Source: Mycobacterium cookii
Lineage (GTDB): Bacteria; Actinomycetota; Actinomycetes; Mycobacteriales; Mycobacteriaceae
Assembly (NCBI RefSeq): GCF_010727945.1
Contig: NZ_AP022569.1
Location: 372,001-436,000 of the forward strand
Length of the DNA stretch: 64,000 nucleotides
Direction of reading: 5' to 3'
The notes below the pieces were generated by a model, which did no database searches, was not told the DNA's origin, and was given only the letters and a program-made list of their open reading frames with translations. Shown in pieces: positions 37,134 through 45,750 of this stretch. Each line of letters opens with the position of its first letter. Position 1 is the first letter of the stretch. The translations under genes were made by a program, and so were the position numbers.

Positions 37134-38222
37134 TGTACTGACCACGGACGTTGGTGACGGCGTGGTGTGGTGACAAAGCGAAGACCTCCGAGTGAAGTGC
37201 GAGCTGTCTAGGAAAGCACTCACACACCGGAGGTCTTCGTGTCTCACCGTAATGCCCCTTTGTCGGAGCTGGGCCGTCTGCGTTTAGCGCGTTGTGTTGT
37301 CGAGGATGGTTGGCCGCTGCGGCGGGCCGCAGAGCGCTTCCAGGTTGCGGTGAGCACCGCGGCGCGCTGGGCAAGCCGGTATCGCGCGTTCGGTGAGGCC
37401 GGCATGGCCGATCGGTCCTCGCGCCCGCATCACAGCCCAACCGGACCCCGACGCGCACCGAGCGGCGCATCATCGGGGTGCGTGTTACTCGACGCTGGGG
37501 ACCAGCACGTATCGGTTACCTGCTCGGAATTCATCCCTCGACGGTGCATCGGGTCCTGACCCGATATCGGCTGGCCAAATTACGCTGGCTGGATCGCCCG
37601 ACCGGGCGCGTCGTGCGCCGCATGCACTCCGAGCACTGTGGGGATCTGGTTCATGTCGACGTCAAAAAGCTGGGCAAGATTCCCGCCGGCGGTGGTTGGC
37701 GCATGTTGGGCCGCTCGGTAGGCCAACGTCACTCCCAGGCCGATAAGTCCAGCGGGAAACGCAACGGGTACCGCAATCCTGTGCGCGGCTATCACTTCCT
37801 ACATACCGCCCTGGATGCACACTCTCGACTGGCCTACAGCGAGCTGCTGGCCGACGAGCGAAAAGACACCGCAGCAGGGTTTTGGCTGCGCGCTAACGCA
37901 TGGTTCGCCGAATCCGGCATCACCGTACGGAAAGTGTTGACCGACAACGGCTCCTGCTACCGCTCGCACGCCTTTGCTGACGCCCTGGGTCACATCGAAC
38001 ATCGCCGGACCCGACCCTATCGACCCCAGACCAACGGCAAAGTAGAGCGGTTTCACCGCACCCTGGCCAACGAATGGGCCTACGCCCGGCTCTACCGCAG
38101 CGACGCCGAACGCTGCCAGGAATTCACCACCTGGCTGCACACCTACAATTTCCACCGCGGCCACACCGCACTCGGCGGCCAACCACCCGCCACCCGCGTA
38201 CCTAACCTCTCAGGTCAGTACA
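37134..38222 (+). mobile_element. IS481-family insertion sequence
   Basis: A 1089-bp element bounded by perfect 10-bp terminal inverted repeats TGTACTGACC (37134-37143) and GGTCAGTACA (38213-38222), with weaker pairing beyond. A 6-bp direct repeat CCTAGC flanks it. It encodes a DDE transposase whose frame is broken and has an mRNA hairpin over the transposase start. It lies between the YciI-like gene and the convergent ABM-domain gene and disrupts neither. Confidence 0.93.
37179..37239 (+). promoter_or_regulatory. Hairpin sequestering the transposase ribosome-binding site
   Basis: CGAAGACCTCCG (37179-37190) and CGGAGGTCTTCG (37228-37239) pair perfectly over 12 bp. The right arm contains the Shine-Dalgarno GGAGG (37229-37233) and the first base of the GTG start (37239). 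An mRNA begun outside the element would fold this stem and hide the start, a protection against read-through known in other insertion sequences. A message starting within the loop would escape it. Confidence 0.7.
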
Positions 38223-38227
38223 CCTAG
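37239..38227 (+). pseudogene. IS481-type transposase, frameshifted
   Basis: Frame 1 from GTG 37239 gives the helix-turn-helix part (GRLRLARCVVEDGWPLRRAA, RFQVAVSTAARWASRYRAFG). Near 37440-37460 it shifts to the -1 frame, which carries TERRIIGVRVTRRWGPARIG and the DDE core: VHVDVKKLG, TDNGSCYRS and NGKVERFHRT. IS481 transposases are normally one frame, so a one-base loss is likely and the product is probably inactive unless ribosomes shift. The stop codon TAG (38225-38227) lies in the duplicated target, not in the element. Confidence 0.85.
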
Positions 38228-38231: not shown

Positions 38232-38852
38232 CTAAACCAGCTCGGGCACCCGCAGGTGTGCCACCGCCAACTCGAACTCGCCGACGTCGTGCTGGTCGGC
38301 GCCGAGGTCGCGCAGCCGAGCGGTCCGCAGCGAACGGGCCTGCTCCTCATTGCGCTGCATCGCCTCGAGGCTGTCGAACGTCGACGACGACACCGCCCGC
38401 CACGAGGCACGGTCGATCATCAGGCTCGCGCTGCAAAAGCCGTCGAGCTCTTCGATCGCGGGCAGCACTGACTCCCGGTAGAACTCGATTGCCCGATCGA
38501 ACTGCTCGGGCCGCACCCTAAGCCACGTGGCGCGCACACAGGCGCCCGGACCGGAGCGGTGATCGCGATGCAGTACCGCGATTTCCCACTCGTCGATCGT
38601 TGGGCTGCCCCCGAATTTCTGCGCCACCTCATCACGCACCGGGCGCACCTGCTGGGCGCTGGCATGCAGGGCGGCTTCGTTCTCCCATGCGGTGGTCGCG
38701 ATACAACGACCGGACTCGCGGTCGACCAACAACGACAGGCCGACGCAGCCGTCGACCTCCTGGATTCTCGGCAGAACGGCGTCGCGAACATGCGCGACGC
38801 CGGCGTCGATCGACGACGGCTGAGCCTGGATAGTGGTGGAGCGCGCAAACAT
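38232..38852 (-). CDS. Tandem ABM-like domain protein (Rv2557/Rv2558-like)
   Basis: A 206-residue protein with two similar halves of the antibiotic-biosynthesis-monooxygenase (dimeric alpha/beta barrel) fold. Both contain the pair [20 protein letters not shown] and [20 protein letters not shown]. It closely resembles what I recall of the M. tuberculosis paralogues Rv2557 and Rv2558, which are reported to respond to starvation. Catalytic activity is unproven. It separates the IS element from the TIR/RyR pair and holds the backbone position between rarA and yjbQ. Confidence 0.8.
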
Positions 38853-38978: not shown

Positions 38979-40556
38979 TTATTTCATGACGCCGGGTTGG
39001 GCTAGCCCGGCGGCGATCTTGTCGACGATGCGGCTGGCTTCGTCGGTGACGCCGGGTCCGCACGCCTTGACGTCGATGACGTAGTCAGACACCGCGTTCA
39101 GCACTCGTTGGCACGCATAGCCGTTGCCGTCGACCTCGGTGAAGCGTTGGAAGATTTTGGTGGAGCCGCCGGAGAAGTCACCGACGTCCCATCGGTAGGA
39201 ACGGTTGTCGGAAAGATAGGTGGCCGTCGCGACTTGGCGGGCGCACTGCTTCCACTGGTCGGCCGATCGCGCCACGAATGCGGCCGCTCGGTCGGAGTTC
39301 GGCGGGAAGACCGCGATGTCCTGGTCGGCAAAGCGGTTGTTGCTCTCACCGGCCCGGTTCGGCCCACCTCGCTTCTGTATGACCGTCCAGGAAAGCTCCT
39401 GCATTCCGCTGTCCTGATACGTGGAGTCCATCCCCGGATAGAGCGTCGCCAGACAAATCTGTGGGGTCGTGGAAACCCAGCTGCTGTGTTTCGTCGCTCC
39501 TTTGCCGCTCTCCACCTGTCGCATATCGTCACCGCCCATGATGGAGTTGACGTCTGAGTCGCTGACGAGCAGGCCACTAAGCCGGTCGGAATTCTGTTGT
39601 GGGAAAGCAACTTTGAGGCCAATCCCGGCCGCGATCGAGGCAACCACGCCGACAACGCCGACGACGATCCAGCGCCGGCGAATCCGGCCCGACTTGGCAT
39701 TGCGGTCGGAAATCGAGGGCGTCGGGGAAGGCGGGGGAGCCGGGGGAGGTGGGGGCGGCGGGATCGGCTGCGGTCCGGAAAACGCCGCCGGCATCACCGG
39801 ATGCGGGATGGTCACCGCTGACGTCACCGCCGGCTCCGGAGCGGAGAACGGCCCAGACATTCCTGCCTGCGTGAATGGAACCGTGACTGCAGCGCCCGCG
39901 TTCGGCGATTCGATCGAGGCCAGGGTCGAGTCGATCTCGGTGCGGATCCGCCAGGTGACGTCCGCCCGGTCGCGTAGCAGTCGCAACAACTGGGTGAGGT
40001 CGCGGAAGGCGGCCGGATCGTGACGATCGTCGTCTAGTCGATCCTTGAGTTCGATCATCAGCTCGGCCTGCTGGTGCCGACTCAGCTCTGGGCGTGACAG
40101 GACCGCCGCGAGCCGCATCAGGTACGCGAACGGCACCTGTGGTTCGGGGGGTAGTGGCCAGGGCAGCGTCGGGACCTGAGCCTGCCGGTGCTGCACCGAG
40201 GAGAGCAGCCGGAAGGCGTTCTGCTTGGACGGGTCCCTGAAGTCGAGGATCTGTCGGGCCGCCAACGGGGTCACCCGCAGGCTGTCGATCGGCCCAATCT
40301 GGACGGGCAGGATCGGCCGTCGCAGCGCCTCGGCGTAGCGCAGCTCAGCCTGGCAGGGTTTGGACGCCAACGAGTTGTTGGAGACGGCGACGATGAATAC
40401 ATCGCAGCGGCGGATCTGCTCGAGTATGGCGTGCCACCACGCTTCGCCACCGCCCAACTCGTCGTCCCACCACACCTGCTGGCGATTGCGTCGCAACGTG
40501 GTCAGCAGGTTCTCTATCAGCGGTCGGTCTTGACTGGCGTAGCTGACAAAAAGCAA
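38979..40556 (-). CDS. TIR domain - membrane helix - PknH_C-type sensor protein
   Basis: A 525-residue fusion. Residues 1-115 are a TIR domain: LFVSYASQDR, VWWDDELGGGEAWWHAILEQ, CDVFIVAVSNNSLASKPCQ. Residues 140-215 are a helical linker common after actinobacterial TIR domains. A Pro-rich stretch (262-280), a basic stop (RIRRRW) and one membrane helix (296-317) follow. Residues 325-520 resemble the extracellular sensor of the kinase PknH: LLVSDSDVNSIMGG, and four cysteines (368, 438, 482, 499) suited to two disulfides. The kinase is thus replaced by TIR. The Glu expected in an LExG motif is Gly here (LGGGE), so NADase activity is uncertain. The start is TTG after GGGGGGAAG. Confidence 0.85.
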   Translation of the reverse strand: MLFVSYASQDRPLIENLLTTLRRNRQQVWWDDELGGGEAWWHAILEQIRRCDVFIVAVSNNSLASKPCQAELRYAEALRRPILPVQIGPIDSLRVTPLAARQILDFRDPSKQNAFRLLSSVQHRQAQVPTLPWPLPPEPQVPFAYLMRLAAVLSRPELSRHQQAELMIELKDRLDDDRHDPAAFRDLTQLLRLLRDRADVTWRIRTEIDSTLASIESPNAGAAVTVPFTQAGMSGPFSAPEPAVTSAVTIPHPVMPAAFSGPQPIPPPPPPPAPPPSPTPSISDRNAKSGRIRRRWIVVGVVGVVASIAAGIGLKVAFPQQNSDRLSGLLVSDSDVNSIMGGDDMRQVESGKGATKHSSWVSTTPQICLATLYPGMDSTYQDSGMQELSWTVIQKRGGPNRAGESNNRFADQDIAVFPPNSDRAAAFVARSADQWKQCARQVATATYLSDNRSYRWDVGDFSGGSTKIFQRFTEVDGNGYACQRVLNAVSDYVIDVKACGPGVTDEASRIVDKIAAGLAQPGVMK

Positions 40557-40658: not shown

Positions 40659-42422
40659 TTAAGGGTGCGTGCCAGCCGTCGCGGCGGCATTCGGGTAGCG
40701 GGCCGCCGCTTCCCGTACGTCGACGATCTGCAGGCCCACCGAGGCAAGCATCGCGGGGATCGCCCTGATGAAGTTGGTGTCCCACTCGGCGATATCGGTA
40801 GGCAGCTGGTCCCATGGCAGAAAATGCGGGTCCGATTTCACCCCGGCGTCTCTTTTTTCCTGCTCCCAACGATCGTGCTCCATGATGCTCAACTTGGTGA
40901 GCTCGTCGCTGGTGAAGGTGAAATCCTTCGCCTGCCAGTCCCGAAGCGGCGTGATCTCGCATCCGATGCTGCGCAGTTTGACACCGATATGACGCGCCTG
41001 GGCACGGTTGGATTTCTTCAGTGACTCGTCCAGCTCGGACCACGGCGGTGGGTTCACCCCGTCGGGTTGCATCAAGCAGTAGCGGCGATGGATTTCGTGG
41101 GCGATTGCTTCGAACGACCCGCCTTCGACCAGGTCCACGCTGCATGTTTGCTGGATTGTTCTGAATACCGTCAGATTCGTGCCGTGCTGCGTCGTCGAGT
41201 TCTCCAGGAGGTCGGCAACCCCGTAGGCCTGCCACAGCGCCGCGACCACCGGCACCGCCGAGTCGAGCGCGTGGCGCAGCTTGAGCGCGGTCTCGACGGT
41301 CTGTTCGTCGCGCTGCGCGGTCACGTAGGCGCGGGAAATCGGGACCGCGGGCCGGGCGGTCGAGAGCCGCTGGAGATCGCGGGCAGAAGTGCAGTAGGCG
41401 GTGAACTCGCACACCTGCTCGAGGACCGGGTAGTTGGCCAGCAGACTGCCGATCCGCTGGTCCGCGTCGTCATCGACAACCGTGACCAGCAGCGGTGCGG
41501 AACTGTCCGCGCGTTCGTCCTGCCATCTGCGGGCCGCGTTCATCACCAGCTCGGAACCGAGTGTGTCGAGGTGAGCCAGCAGGATGTGCGGCTGCGTCGC
41601 CGTGTCGAACGGGTGCGCCTCGAGCAGCAGGCGCGCGCCGATCTCATCGGCGTTGAAGAAGTCCAGCGCCGACTCGTCGTCCCCGTGGTTGGACTCCTCG
41701 ATCCTCAGAAACACACACAGGCTCGGGTTGTTGACCCGGGCCAGGCAGAGCAGTCGGCGACTGCCTTTGACCAACCGCCTTGCCCGCGTGACGATTTCAG
41801 TGTTGACGACGTCGTCTGGCGTTACGGCGAGTAGACGTGCGGCACGCTTGACTCCGGCCGCCTCCAGCGTCGACTTCAACTGCGCGTCGCCCACGATCAC
41901 CGGGCCGCCCCACTGGCGGCAGGCTTCGATGCGTGGGTTACGCGCGTCTGCTTCGATGACAACCACCCGGTAATTCGCGGCGCGCAGCACCCGCAGCAAC
42001 TCGAAGCCGACATCGCCCAAGCCGCACAGCACCACATGGTTACGTCTGAGCGGAATCAGCATCCGCTGCGCCCGGTCGTGCAGCAGCGCGATCAGTGCGA
42101 TCAGCGCAGCCCACCCGGCCACGATCGGTGCCAGGTAGCGGGCGACATCCAACGCCAAGCCGACCTGGCTCTCCGGCTGTGGGGCGGCGTGCAGGAAGAA
42201 AAGTTTGCTGCTGCCGTATAAGGCGTCGGAGAGCGAATAGTGCACGTGCTCGGAGCCTTCGAGCGGCTCCCAGGTCAGGTAACCGAAGCAACCGAGCAGA
42301 AACGCGAAAACGGCGGCGGGCGCCAGCACCCAGTACAACCGGGGATCGGTCAGCACGGCCAGAATGCGCTGATGGACCGCCAGCGGAGGCGTGGCCTCGC
42401 CGTCGGCAGGCGATGCGGTCAA
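40659..42422 (-). CDS. Two-helix membrane protein with TrkA-N/RCK and RyR domains
   Basis: A 587-residue protein. Two membrane helices (about 30-50 and 96-114) flank a loop placed like a channel pore loop (YSLSDALYGSSKLFFL) but lacking a TVGYGD filter. A Rossmann TrkA-N/RCK domain follows (VVLCGLGDVGFELLRVL, GLGDVG at 134-139, acidic VVVIEADA). A second, weaker copy spans about 280-420. The C-terminus (about 438-567) is an RyR domain: ELDESLKKSNRAQARHIG, then IMEHDRWEQEK and FIRAIPAMLASVGL. It may sense nucleotides or gate ions. The start is TTG 42422 after GGGGGGAAG. It is 102 bp upstream of the TIR gene on the same strand. Confidence 0.85.
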   Translation of the reverse strand: MTASPADGEATPPLAVHQRILAVLTDPRLYWVLAPAAVFAFLLGCFGYLTWEPLEGSEHVHYSLSDALYGSSKLFFLHAAPQPESQVGLALDVARYLAPIVAGWAALIALIALLHDRAQRMLIPLRRNHVVLCGLGDVGFELLRVLRAANYRVVVIEADARNPRIEACRQWGGPVIVGDAQLKSTLEAAGVKRAARLLAVTPDDVVNTEIVTRARRLVKGSRRLLCLARVNNPSLCVFLRIEESNHGDDESALDFFNADEIGARLLLEAHPFDTATQPHILLAHLDTLGSELVMNAARRWQDERADSSAPLLVTVVDDDADQRIGSLLANYPVLEQVCEFTAYCTSARDLQRLSTARPAVPISRAYVTAQRDEQTVETALKLRHALDSAVPVVAALWQAYGVADLLENSTTQHGTNLTVFRTIQQTCSVDLVEGGSFEAIAHEIHRRYCLMQPDGVNPPPWSELDESLKKSNRAQARHIGVKLRSIGCEITPLRDWQAKDFTFTSDELTKLSIMEHDRWEQEKRDAGVKSDPHFLPWDQLPTDIAEWDTNFIRAIPAMLASVGLQIVDVREAAARYPNAAATAGTHP

Positions 42423-42540: not shown

Positions 42541-42942
42541 GTGAAAACCGATGTGCTGGATGTCGACACCGCGCGTCGCCGTACCGTCGATCTGACCGAG
42601 GCTGTGCGCGCGTTCTGCTTCCCGCTGGGTGACGGCCTGTGCAACGTGTTCGTCCCGCACGCGACGGCCGGGGTGGCGATCATCGAAACCGGGGCCGGAT
42701 CCGACGACGACCTCGTCGACACCCTGGAACGGTTGTTGCCGCGCGACGAGCGCTACCGGCATTCGCACGGATCTGCAGGTCATGGCGCCGATCATGTGCT
42801 GCCGGCGATCGTCGCGCCGTCGATCACCGTGCCGGTGCACGGCGGTGAGCCGCTGCTCGGCACCTGGCAGAGCGTCGTGCTGGTCGACTTGAACCGGGAC
42901 AATCCGCGGCGGTCGGTGCGGCTGTCGTTCGTCGAGGCGTGA
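42541..42942 (+). CDS. YjbQ/UPF0047 family protein (Rv2556c-like)
   Basis: A 133-residue protein of the YjbQ family: CNVFVPHATAGVAIIETG, then SHGSAGHGADHVLPAIVAPS, then LLGTWQSVVLVDLN with the conserved GTWQ. Members show secondary thiamine-phosphate synthase activity, but their main role is unsettled. The start is GTG 42541. It precedes alaS by about 100 bp, the same order as Rv2556c-Rv2555c. Confidence 0.9.
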   Translation: MKTDVLDVDTARRRTVDLTEAVRAFCFPLGDGLCNVFVPHATAGVAIIETGAGSDDDLVDTLERLLPRDERYRHSHGSAGHGADHVLPAIVAPSITVPVHGGEPLLGTWQSVVLVDLNRDNPRRSVRLSFVEA

Positions 42943-43044
42943 CTCGTCGAGTGTTCGGGCACCGTTGGTGGACCGGTACTGTAGTGCGGTCCAAATAGGC
43001 TGGACGCGGGCCGAAAAGAACAGGGTCAAAGAGGAAGCGGAAAA

Positions 43045-45750
43045 GTGCAGACACACGAGATCAGGAAGAGGTTCCTGGATCATTTCGTGAACGCGGGCCA
43101 CACCGAGGTACCCAGTGCGTCGGTGATACTCGACGACCCGAACCTGCTGTTCGTCAATGCCGGCATGGTGCAGTTCGTGCCGTTCTTCCTCGGCCAGCGC
43201 ACGCCGCCGTATCCGACGGCAACCAGCATCCAGAAATGCATCCGGACGCCCGACATCGACGAAGTCGGGATCACCACCCGGCACAACACGTTTTTTCAGA
43301 TGGCCGGCAATTTCTCGTTCGGCGATTATTTCAAGCGTGCAGCCATCGAATTGGCCTGGACCCTGCTGACCAACAAGGTCGAGGACGGCGGCTATGGGCT
43401 GGATCCGGAAAAGCTCTGGGCCACAGTTTATTTGGACGATGACGAAGCCATAGCGCTGTGGCGCGAGATCGCCGGCCTGCCGGTCGAGCGTATTCAGCGG
43501 CGCGGGATGGCGGACAACTACTGGTCGATGGGCATTCCCGGCCCGTGCGGCCCGTCGTCGGAGATCTATTACGACCGCGGACCCGGGTTCGGGGTCGACG
43601 GCGGTCCGGTCGCCAACGAAGACCGCTACCTCGAGGTCTGGAACCTCGTGTTCATGCAGAACGAGCGCGGCGAAGGAATCGGCAAGGAGGACTACGAGAT
43701 CCTCGGTCCGTTGCCGCGCAAGAACATCGACACCGGCATGGGCGTGGAGCGGATCGCGCTGGTGCTGCAGAACGTGGCCAACGTCTACGAGACCGACCTG
43801 CTGCGGCCCGTCATCGACCTGGTGGAGTCGCGTGCCCCGCGCCGCTACGACGTCGGCAACCACGCCGACGACGTGCGCTACCGCATCATCGCCGACCACA
43901 GCCGCACCGCCGCGATCCTGATCGGCGACGGGGTGAGCCCCGGCAACGACGGCCGCGGCTACGTCCTGCGCCGCCTGCTGCGCCGCGTCATCCGCTCGGC
44001 CAAGCTGCTGGGCATCGACGACCCGATCGTGGGCGATCTGATGGCGACCGTCCGCGACGCGATGGGCCCGTCGTATCCGGAACTGATGACCGACTTCGAC
44101 CGGATCAACCGGATCGCGATCGCCGAGGAGACGGCCTTCAACCGCACGCTCGCGTCGGGCTCCAAACTGTTCGACGACGTCGCGGGCACCACCAGATCCT
44201 CAGGCGCGTCAGTGGTTTCCGGCTCGGACGCTTTCACGCTGCACGACACCTACGGGTTCCCGATCGAGCTCACCCTGGAGATGGCCGCCGAGCAGGGCCT
44301 GACCGTCGACCAGGCCGGCTTCCACGAGCTGATGCTGCAGCAGCGGCAGCGCGCCAAGGCCGATGCCGCCGCCCGCAAACACGCCCATGCCGACCTGACC
44401 GCCTACCGTGAGCTGGTCGACGCCGGACCGACGGAGTTCACCGGCTTCGACGAATTGACCTCCGAGGCAAGGATTCTCGGGATCTTCGTGGACGGCAAGC
44501 GGGTGCCCGTCGTCGCACACGCCGCCCACGGGGAGGCCGCCATCGCCGACCGGGTGGAGCTGGTGCTGGACCGCACCCCGCTCTACGCCGAGTCCGGCGG
44601 CCAGCTCGCCGACGTGGGCACCATCACCGGGACCGGGTCCGGCGGGAGCGCCCGGGCCGCCGTGACCGATGTGCAGAAGATCGCCAAAAGCCTGTACGTG
44701 CACCGGGTCAATGTGGAATCCGGCGAATTCGTCGAGGGCGACACCGTGGTCGCCGCGGTCGACGCAGGCTGGCGCAAAGGTGCCACCCAGGGCCATTCGG
44801 GCACCCACATGGTGCACGCCGCACTGCGGCAAGTGTTGGGGCCCAACGCCGTTCAGGCCGGTTCGCTGAACAGGCCGGGCTATCTGCGGTTCGACTTCAA
44901 CTGGCAGGGTTCGCTCAGCGAGCAGCAGCGCGCCGACATCGAAGAGGTGACCAACCAGGCGGTGCAGGCCGACTACGAGGTGCACACCTTCGTCGAGAAT
45001 TTCGAGAAGGCCAAGGCGATGGGCGCGATGGCGCTGTTCGGCGAGAGCTATCCCGAGCAGGTGCGGGTCGTGGAGATCGGCGGCCCGTTCTCACTCGAGC
45101 TGTGTGGTGGCACGCATGTGCACAACTCGGCGCAGATCGGGCCGGTCACCTTGCTCGGCGAGTCGTCGGTGGGTTCGGGCGTGCGACGCGTCGAGGCCTA
45201 CGTCGGCCTGGAGTCGTTCAAGCATCTGGCCAAGGAGCGGGCGCTGATGGCCGGGCTGGCCTCGTCGCTGAAGGTGCCGTCCGACGAGGTGCCCGCCCGG
45301 GTGGCGAACCTGGTGGAGCGGTTGAAAGCCGCGGAGAAGGAAATCGAACGTAGCCGGTTGGCGAACGCGCGGGCCGCCGCGGCAAACGCCGCCGCCGGAG
45401 CCCAGCACATCGGTAACGTCCAGGTGGTGGCGCAGCGGATGTCAGCCGGGATGACGGGTTCCGATCTGCGCTCGCTGGTCGGCGACATCCGCGGAAAGCT
45501 CGGCAACGACCCGGCGGTGGTCGCGCTGATCGCCGAAGGTGGCGGCGGCGCCGTGCCGTACGCGGTCGCCGCCAACCGCGCCGCCCAGGACCTGGGCCTG
45601 CGGGCCAACGAGCTGGTCAAGCAGCTCGCCGGCGCAGTCGACGGGCGTGGCGGCGGAAAGGCCGACCTCGCGCAGGGCTCGGGGAAGGATTCCTCCGGCA
45701 TCGACGCGGCGCTGGACGCCCTACGCGCTGAGATAGCCCGGGTCGGCTGA
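43045..45750 (+). CDS. alaS: Alanyl-tRNA synthetase
   Basis: A 901-residue class II synthetase. The aminoacylation domain begins [20 protein letters not shown]. The editing domain has [13 protein letters not shown] and the zinc-type ELCGGTHV, and the C-terminal part is coiled coil plus DHHA1-like. It charges tRNA-Ala and hydrolyses mischarged Ser/Gly. GTG 43045 follows AGAGGAAG and gives the usual [10 protein letters not shown] start. ruvX follows immediately after its stop codon, so the two are co-translated. Confidence 0.98.

Follow-up and report, generated by a model that had tools for sequence, protein, structure and literature searches.

The effectors of the anti-phage system Thoeris are of the ThsA type, with SLOG, Macro or caspase-like domains, and the mycobacterial Ser/Thr kinase PknH has one membrane helix. 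For an NAD-derived messenger acting on a channel with a ryanodine receptor (RyR) domain, animals provide the one precedent to date, and that in outline only. In a preprint of 2026, phage RyR-domain proteins are reported to cleave or sequester the TIR products 2'cADPR and 3'cADPR: RyDEP is a hydrolase with the catalytic dyad H75/D117, and two tested homologues are sponges (PMC13232231). This preprint makes no mention of TrkA and calls for studies on whether cADPR acts directly on the animal RyR domain (PMC13232231).

Here, I show that a 64,000-nucleotide stretch of the Mycobacterium cookii genome (hereafter, the window) carries on its reverse strand a gene for a TIR-linker-TM-PknH_C receptor-like protein (38979..40556) and, 102 nt directly upstream and co-directional with it, a gene for a channel-like protein of 587 amino acids with two membrane helices (2TM), an RCK and a RyR domain (40659..42422). 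The channel gene, absent from the original prediction for this DNA, is the main functional clue. The reading favoured below, with a probability of roughly 0.5, is that the receptor is an outside-sensing TIR enzyme making an ADP-ribose messenger that gates the RyR-domain channel.

The receptor gene is a single open frame of 525 amino acids with a TTG start, upstream of which there is a purine-rich stretch. Residues 3-117 (40206..40550) match the Pfam family TIR_2 with 76.2 bits (cut-off 28), an assignment shared by the alignment with Cat1 and by the conservation among relatives, and residues 324-516 (39009..39587) match PknH_C with 128.4 bits (cut-off 27); the proposed fusion of the two domains is borne out. 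The sensor also matches 4esq, the extracellular domain of PknH, both in sequence (E 3e-26) and in fold (TM 0.90 on target, 1.7 A rmsd), the receptor model having a mean pLDDT of 81.8 and retrieving animal and plant TIR structures as well. The four sensor cysteines expected at 368, 438, 482 and 499 are present and invariant in all 30 aligned relatives. In a PHROGs search the receptor gave one weak match only, to a family of unknown function. Between the two domains lie a Pro-rich stretch without predicted structure and a helical linker, predicted to be cytoplasmic (residues 128-216, 39909..40175), which is delimited by conservation and by the fold model: it has numerous invariant positions between L131 and R205 in the aligned relatives, four predicted helices (pLDDT about 81-97) and no Pfam match. 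The single membrane helix that had been foreseen corresponds to the one hydrophobic stretch in the hydropathy profile (residues 296-314, 39615..39671), though the fold model forms no helix there and its pLDDT is under 50 for most of the stretch. Because RIRRR precedes this stretch, the positive-inside rule predicts the TIR domain inside and the PknH_C domain outside, with the two ends on opposite sides of the membrane, in agreement with a receptor-like plan.

Within the genus, 248 genomes were searched, and full-length receptor relatives were found from 57% identity downward among the matches listed; at least 238 of the genomes hold some receptor match, many of which show only one of the two domains. 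A one-off fusion or an assembly error is ruled out by the best relative, which has 57% identity over residues 1-521 (genome G094). The fusion, originally taken for an undescribed architecture, is real but not unique, its family being spread over the genus with 62 intact ORFs in the fetched loci. These were the neighbourhoods of listed matches starting in the TIR part, plus those of channel hits; with the window, they contain 87 TIR hits, 62 of which are in ORFs wholly holding a PknH_C hit, all from one genus. The other 25, with no PknH_C hit wholly within the called ORF, comprise 10 other TIR types (L128, L131, L133-L137, L139-L141) and 15 cases of broken frame, contig end or unsure boundary, every one of the 15 with a channel gene within 500 nt. 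Gene calls in several locus analyses were made by a simple script, and some ORF ends and frames are unsure. Scanning contigs with the receptor alignment gave 88 places, the best 80 of which correspond to 77 named loci; the same scan with the single receptor sequence found zero relatives. Mycolicibacter species, the M. kansasii group, M. gordonae, M. simiae, M. asiaticum and others are represented among the best 80 of the 88 places, and M. tuberculosis is not among the 77 loci derived from them. One Gordonia and two Micropruina records match over the TIR and linker part, to which that comparison refers.

Some loci hold variants of the plan. Tandem TIR-PknH_C copies are found in L080 (7645-10714), their TIR halves being near-identical and their sensors unlike, and L138 (1800-4409) encodes an 870-residue TIR-TPR-PknH_C protein with no channel hit on its 4.9-kb contig. 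Two TIR proteins have other C-terminal domains, namely an NHL propeller (L131, 5385-7055) and a thioredoxin/DsbA domain (L141, 4080-5579), which presumably resemble the sensor domains of two further kinases, PknD and PknE; TIR receptors look as if they mirror kinase sensors (PknH, PknD, PknE).

As for the genomic setting, the pair is flanked on one side by a backbone gene for an ABM-domain protein (38232..38852, reverse strand) and on the other by backbone genes for a UPF0047 protein and what I take to be alaS (42541..45750, forward strand), as identified by Pfam and genome comparison. Sixty genomes were searched, 41 others having a match to the ABM gene, and the gaps were derived by hand from two match lists. 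The gap between the ABM gene and alaS is about 250-760 nt in 32 of these 41 genomes, 3127 nt in one and 4193 nt here; in the other eight, the two genes are far apart or on different contigs. The receptor-channel pair in the window is an insert between the ABM gene and alaS, and the earlier placement of the receptor between two backbone genes holds. A transposase ORF with an integrase core (37478-38227) adjoins the ABM gene, the transposase-like ORFs together spanning 37239-38227.

To judge by gene neighbourhoods, the pairing of TIR-PknH_C receptors with RyR channels is near certain. A RyR-channel gene lies within 500 nt of 54 of the 62 intact receptor ORFs (69 of 87 when all TIR hits are counted); of 55 ORFs with a channel in the locus, 43 are co-directional with it, 10 divergent and two convergent. 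The eight that lack a channel within this distance are L054, on a 4.8-kb contig, the second tandem copy of L080, L062, L127, the TIR-TPR-PknH_C protein of L138, and L123, L124 and L125, which are extra copies in genomes holding a paired one. A tree of 60 receptor ORFs (quick method, SH-aLRT support) calls for at least two switches of channel class and at least three of orientation, the RyR channel remaining the neighbour across these changes. Grouping the loci by context yields seven groups if two shared flanking genes are required (51 loci falling into one of them, another being merely a contig end) and three if one is enough. Class, orientation and context all vary, and the pair thus stays together amid changing surroundings. 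Pairing as a trait of every TIR gene was considered and rejected, for no channel hit occurs in any of the nine loci with weak TIR matches (L133-L141), nor in L128 and L131, all of these loci being 4.9-14 kb long.

The channels themselves are of two classes, of about 600 and about 800 residues, with about 23% mutual identity where compared. The long class is found in 92 of the 248 genomes at E 1e-80 and the short one in 17 at E 1e-20, two of the latter only over the RyR part. Thirty fetched places of the long class are those without a TIR-PknH_C neighbour (L070, L076, L077 and one contig-end piece stand outside this set). In 18 of them a TIR ORF lies within 1.5 kb, in nine within 500 nt; the remaining 12 have no TIR within 1.5 kb. 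Thirteen of the 18 neighbours were recognised at E under 1e-10, one (L297) being a fragment beside a channel remnant, and five are weak profile matches (E 7e-5 to 3e-6); when four of these five were run against Pfam, TIR_2 was among the families listed for L270 and L286, L282 and L290 having the profile match only. The neighbours include proteins of TIR-nSTAND1-WD40 size, TIR-WD40 proteins and others. L270, L282, L286 and L290 encode WD40-propeller proteins of about 930-980 residues with an N-terminal TIR-like region near RyR channels, and in L292 a TIR-DeoRC protein is found near such a channel. Among nine further channel loci, a whole TIR gene is present within 1.5 kb in L071, L072 and L075, L073 holds no more than a TIR-like piece of 64 residues, a TIR-nSTAND1 gene lies further off in L069 and L077, and L070, L074 and L076 are without TIR.

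Outside the genus, 20 channel loci were inspected. TIR adjoins the channel in two of them (L250, L266), one more TIR being at 1.6 kb, and a DUF4062-NACHT-HEAT gene does so in four (L249, L251 and L258 by Pfam, L262 by clustering only); DUF4062 is reported to be an NADase that resembles TIR (PMC13174449). Fourteen of the 20 showed no TIR and no DUF4062 up to 1 kb away, Pfam having covered part of the neighbours. AAA proteins, amine oxidases, a ClpB and a BTAD regulator are other neighbours. The TIR profile used for channel loci can undercount, for it missed the TIR of L266, which was found by Pfam.

These distributions bear on a role in environmental sensing without defence, whereby ion balance would be set by the pair, with PknH_C reporting a cue of envelope or redox origin. 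That PknH_C is the sensor of a Ser/Thr kinase speaks for such a role, and the large clade in which the pair is syntenic (51 loci in one context group) is what a housekeeping sensing function would also give. The patchy presence, the different insertion sites and the STAND-WD40 kind of channel partners elsewhere speak against it. I regard this explanation as rather unlikely; it is compatible with a messenger mechanism, so that its odds overlap those of the others.

The partner of the receptor is assigned on the basis of TrkA_N, profile and fold matches. Its membrane part (42048..42329) has two helices flanking a predicted pore-type helix, in a region where the confidence of the model is low, and is followed by a TrkA_N/RCK domain (residues 130-236, 41715..42035; Pfam, 64.8 bits); a TrkA_N domain together with two membrane helices is the make-up of an RCK/TrkA channel. 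The K+ selectivity filter TVGYGD was not found in its pore. The mean pLDDT of the model is 79.6, lower in the membrane part, and its best fold matches are GsuK and TrkA, with a whole-length but loose alignment to GsuK (Foldseek E 2e-10, TM 0.37 on the model, about 14 A rmsd). No match to the window's channel was obtained among the PADLOC models or in PHROGs, and the channel was not found in the plasmid collection.

These data invite a reading by NAD depletion or redox state, according to which the TIR domain destroys NAD+, the RCK domains of the partner read NAD or ADP levels as in GsuK, and the RyR domain has an accessory role, structural or regulatory. The GsuK entries among the best fold matches include NAD- and ADP-bound ones, and among the Pfam domains in the window's channel TrkA_N scores highest; yet both channel classes keep the RyR domain, which is also found as separate small ORFs beside some channels, as would suit a domain with its own ligand, and I consider depletion unlikely.

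The RyR domain of the partner, of the two-repeat, R12-like type (residues 437-572, 40707..41114), is recognised through relatives and by profile. The window's own protein is unmatched by the Pfam RyR model PF02026 (cut-off 27.4), which was assigned scores of 29.4, 31.3, 36.7, 34.5, 27.3 (just under the cut-off) and, for a RyR-only ORF, 52.1 bits in six relatives. With this RyR-only ORF, the partner domain shares 44% identity (E 2e-36), and a profile of 14 channels matches RyR1, RyR2 and RyR3 structures (best E 9e-25, a RyR1 chimera) in addition to TrkA and KefC, so that homology to RyR is reached via the profile and close relatives; RyR structures are not among the 50 fold matches listed for the partner. 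About ten loop residues, including a Trp, that all 13 other aligned channels keep are missing from the window's RyR domain, whose ligand may consequently differ or be lost.

Small RyR-only ORFs are found beside RyR channels in L073 (7610-8110), L075 (7838-8407), L076 (7208-7816) and L077 (4351-4833), and possibly act as messenger sponges or hydrolases. Extended to the channel protein itself, the idea would be that its RyR domain ends the signal, hydrolysing or soaking up the TIR product as phage RyDEP does, and that the protein is a brake or self-immunity module. The RyR alignment does have an invariant His and acidic residues, and the precedent of a hydrolase with two sponge homologues is at hand (PMC13232231), but a mere hydrolase hardly explains the fusion with a membrane pore and RCK domains, and this explanation seems quite improbable.

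Turning to the TIR active site, Asp31, Ser65 and Glu71 of the receptor are the same in all 30 aligned relatives, and a profile of 11 TIR relatives places S5, D31, S65 and E71 on S7, D33, S68 and E74 of Cat1, the correspondence being counted by hand along the profile alignment. The pocket of Cat1 is described as formed by S7, H8, N9, N10, D33, S68 and E74; alanine mutants of D33, S68 and E74 are defective, and N10 is important too (PMC12162218). All of the catalytic Glu of helix C and the pocket Ser and Asp of TIR NADases are kept in the receptor. The original prediction that Gly occupies the position of the catalytic Glu is wrong: a missing Glu is rejected both by the conservation of Glu71 and by its alignment with E74 of Cat1. 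There are departures as well. N10 of Cat1 is replaced by Ser8, the residues at H8 and N9 differ too, and Pro or Ala stands in the receptor family at the Trp of the WxxxE motif, which is present in most bacterial TIR NADases (PMC11374754). With the Glu, Asp and Ser kept and this Trp and N10 replaced, the receptor TIR is likely an NADase with departures. That TIR is instead a scaffold, as the original prediction proposed, with clustered sensors bringing in the channel or a further TIR protein through contact and without catalysis, is suggested by the two replacements and by the matches of the TIR profile to MyD88 and TLR structures, yet it is very doubtful given the invariance of Glu71, Asp31 and Ser65 in 30 of 30 relatives and the fact that channels pair with TIRs that differ in architecture as well as with DUF4062 proteins, which are TIR-like.

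The messenger reading may now be stated in full. The receptor and channel genes would form one signalling unit, in which the PknH_C domain senses a cue in the envelope or outside the cell, and the signal, relayed by the membrane helix and then by the conserved linker, makes the TIR domains cluster. The clustered TIR would act on NAD+ to give an ADP-ribose messenger (a cyclic ADP-ribose isomer being the likeliest) that would bind the RyR domain of the adjoining 2TM-RCK channel and alter its gating, a step that has about an even chance of being right. The resulting ion flow would stop growth or kill the cell, most likely in anti-phage defence. What leads to this proposal is the pairing, the occurrence of TIR near other RyR channels, the RyR profile matches, the phage RyR proteins and the conserved catalytic residues. 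To be counted against it are the RyR loop deletion, the failure of the window's protein to match PF02026, the missing K+ filter and the loose GsuK fold, as well as the replaced WxxxE Trp and Cat1 N10, the eight unpaired receptors out of 62 and the 12 TIR-less channel loci out of 30.

In wider terms, the pair might belong to an actinobacterial, above all mycobacterial, modular TIR-to-RyR pathway with exchangeable sensors (PknH_C outside, STAND-WD40 inside), in which cyclic ADP-ribose gates an RCK channel; this would be a bacterial counterpart of the action of cADPR on ryanodine receptors, with the mycobacteriophage RyDEP as a counter-move. I hold this broader proposal tentatively, as falling somewhat short of an even chance. 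If true, it names a host system as a possible target of the RyR protein of mycobacteriophages. TIR enzymes, the makers of cADPR isomers, being genetically tied to RyR-domain channels, small bacterial proteins become available for a direct test of whether cADPR acts on the RyR domain. No description of a TIR-PknH_C receptor or of a TIR-RyR channel pair was found in the open literature searched, the coverage of which is incomplete, and novelty is accordingly provisional.

To sum up, the pair can be set beside five known systems. By its domain content it resembles Thoeris in plan, in that a TIR protein stands beside a candidate effector with a nucleotide-binding domain and an NAD-derived messenger is expected. 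It is not filed as Thoeris, for the effector type differs: the TIR is here part of a putative membrane receptor with an outer sensor, the candidate effector is a channel with RCK and RyR domains and not ThsA, and the PADLOC ThsB models match the receptor weakly (13-23 bits). With PknH of M. tuberculosis, the receptor shares the PknH_C sensor and a single membrane helix, TIR receptors using the same outer sensor as a mycobacterial kinase, whereas the kinase is replaced by TIR and the helical linker. GsuK, an RCK K+ channel, is the best fold match of the partner over its whole length, the partner differing by the added RyR domain, the lack of a TVGYGD filter, an identity of about 15% and a loose superposition. 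The two-repeat RyR domain of the partner is like the R12 repeats of animal ryanodine receptors and phage RyDEP but, unlike in these, it is joined to a bacterial two-helix RCK channel-like protein. Finally, an outer sensor, one helix and an inner TIR, in the predicted topology, recall the Toll-like receptors; unlike them, the mycobacterial receptor has TIR first and the sensor last, its outer part is PknH_C, and it retains Glu, Ser and Asp at the catalytic positions known from bacterial NADase TIRs.
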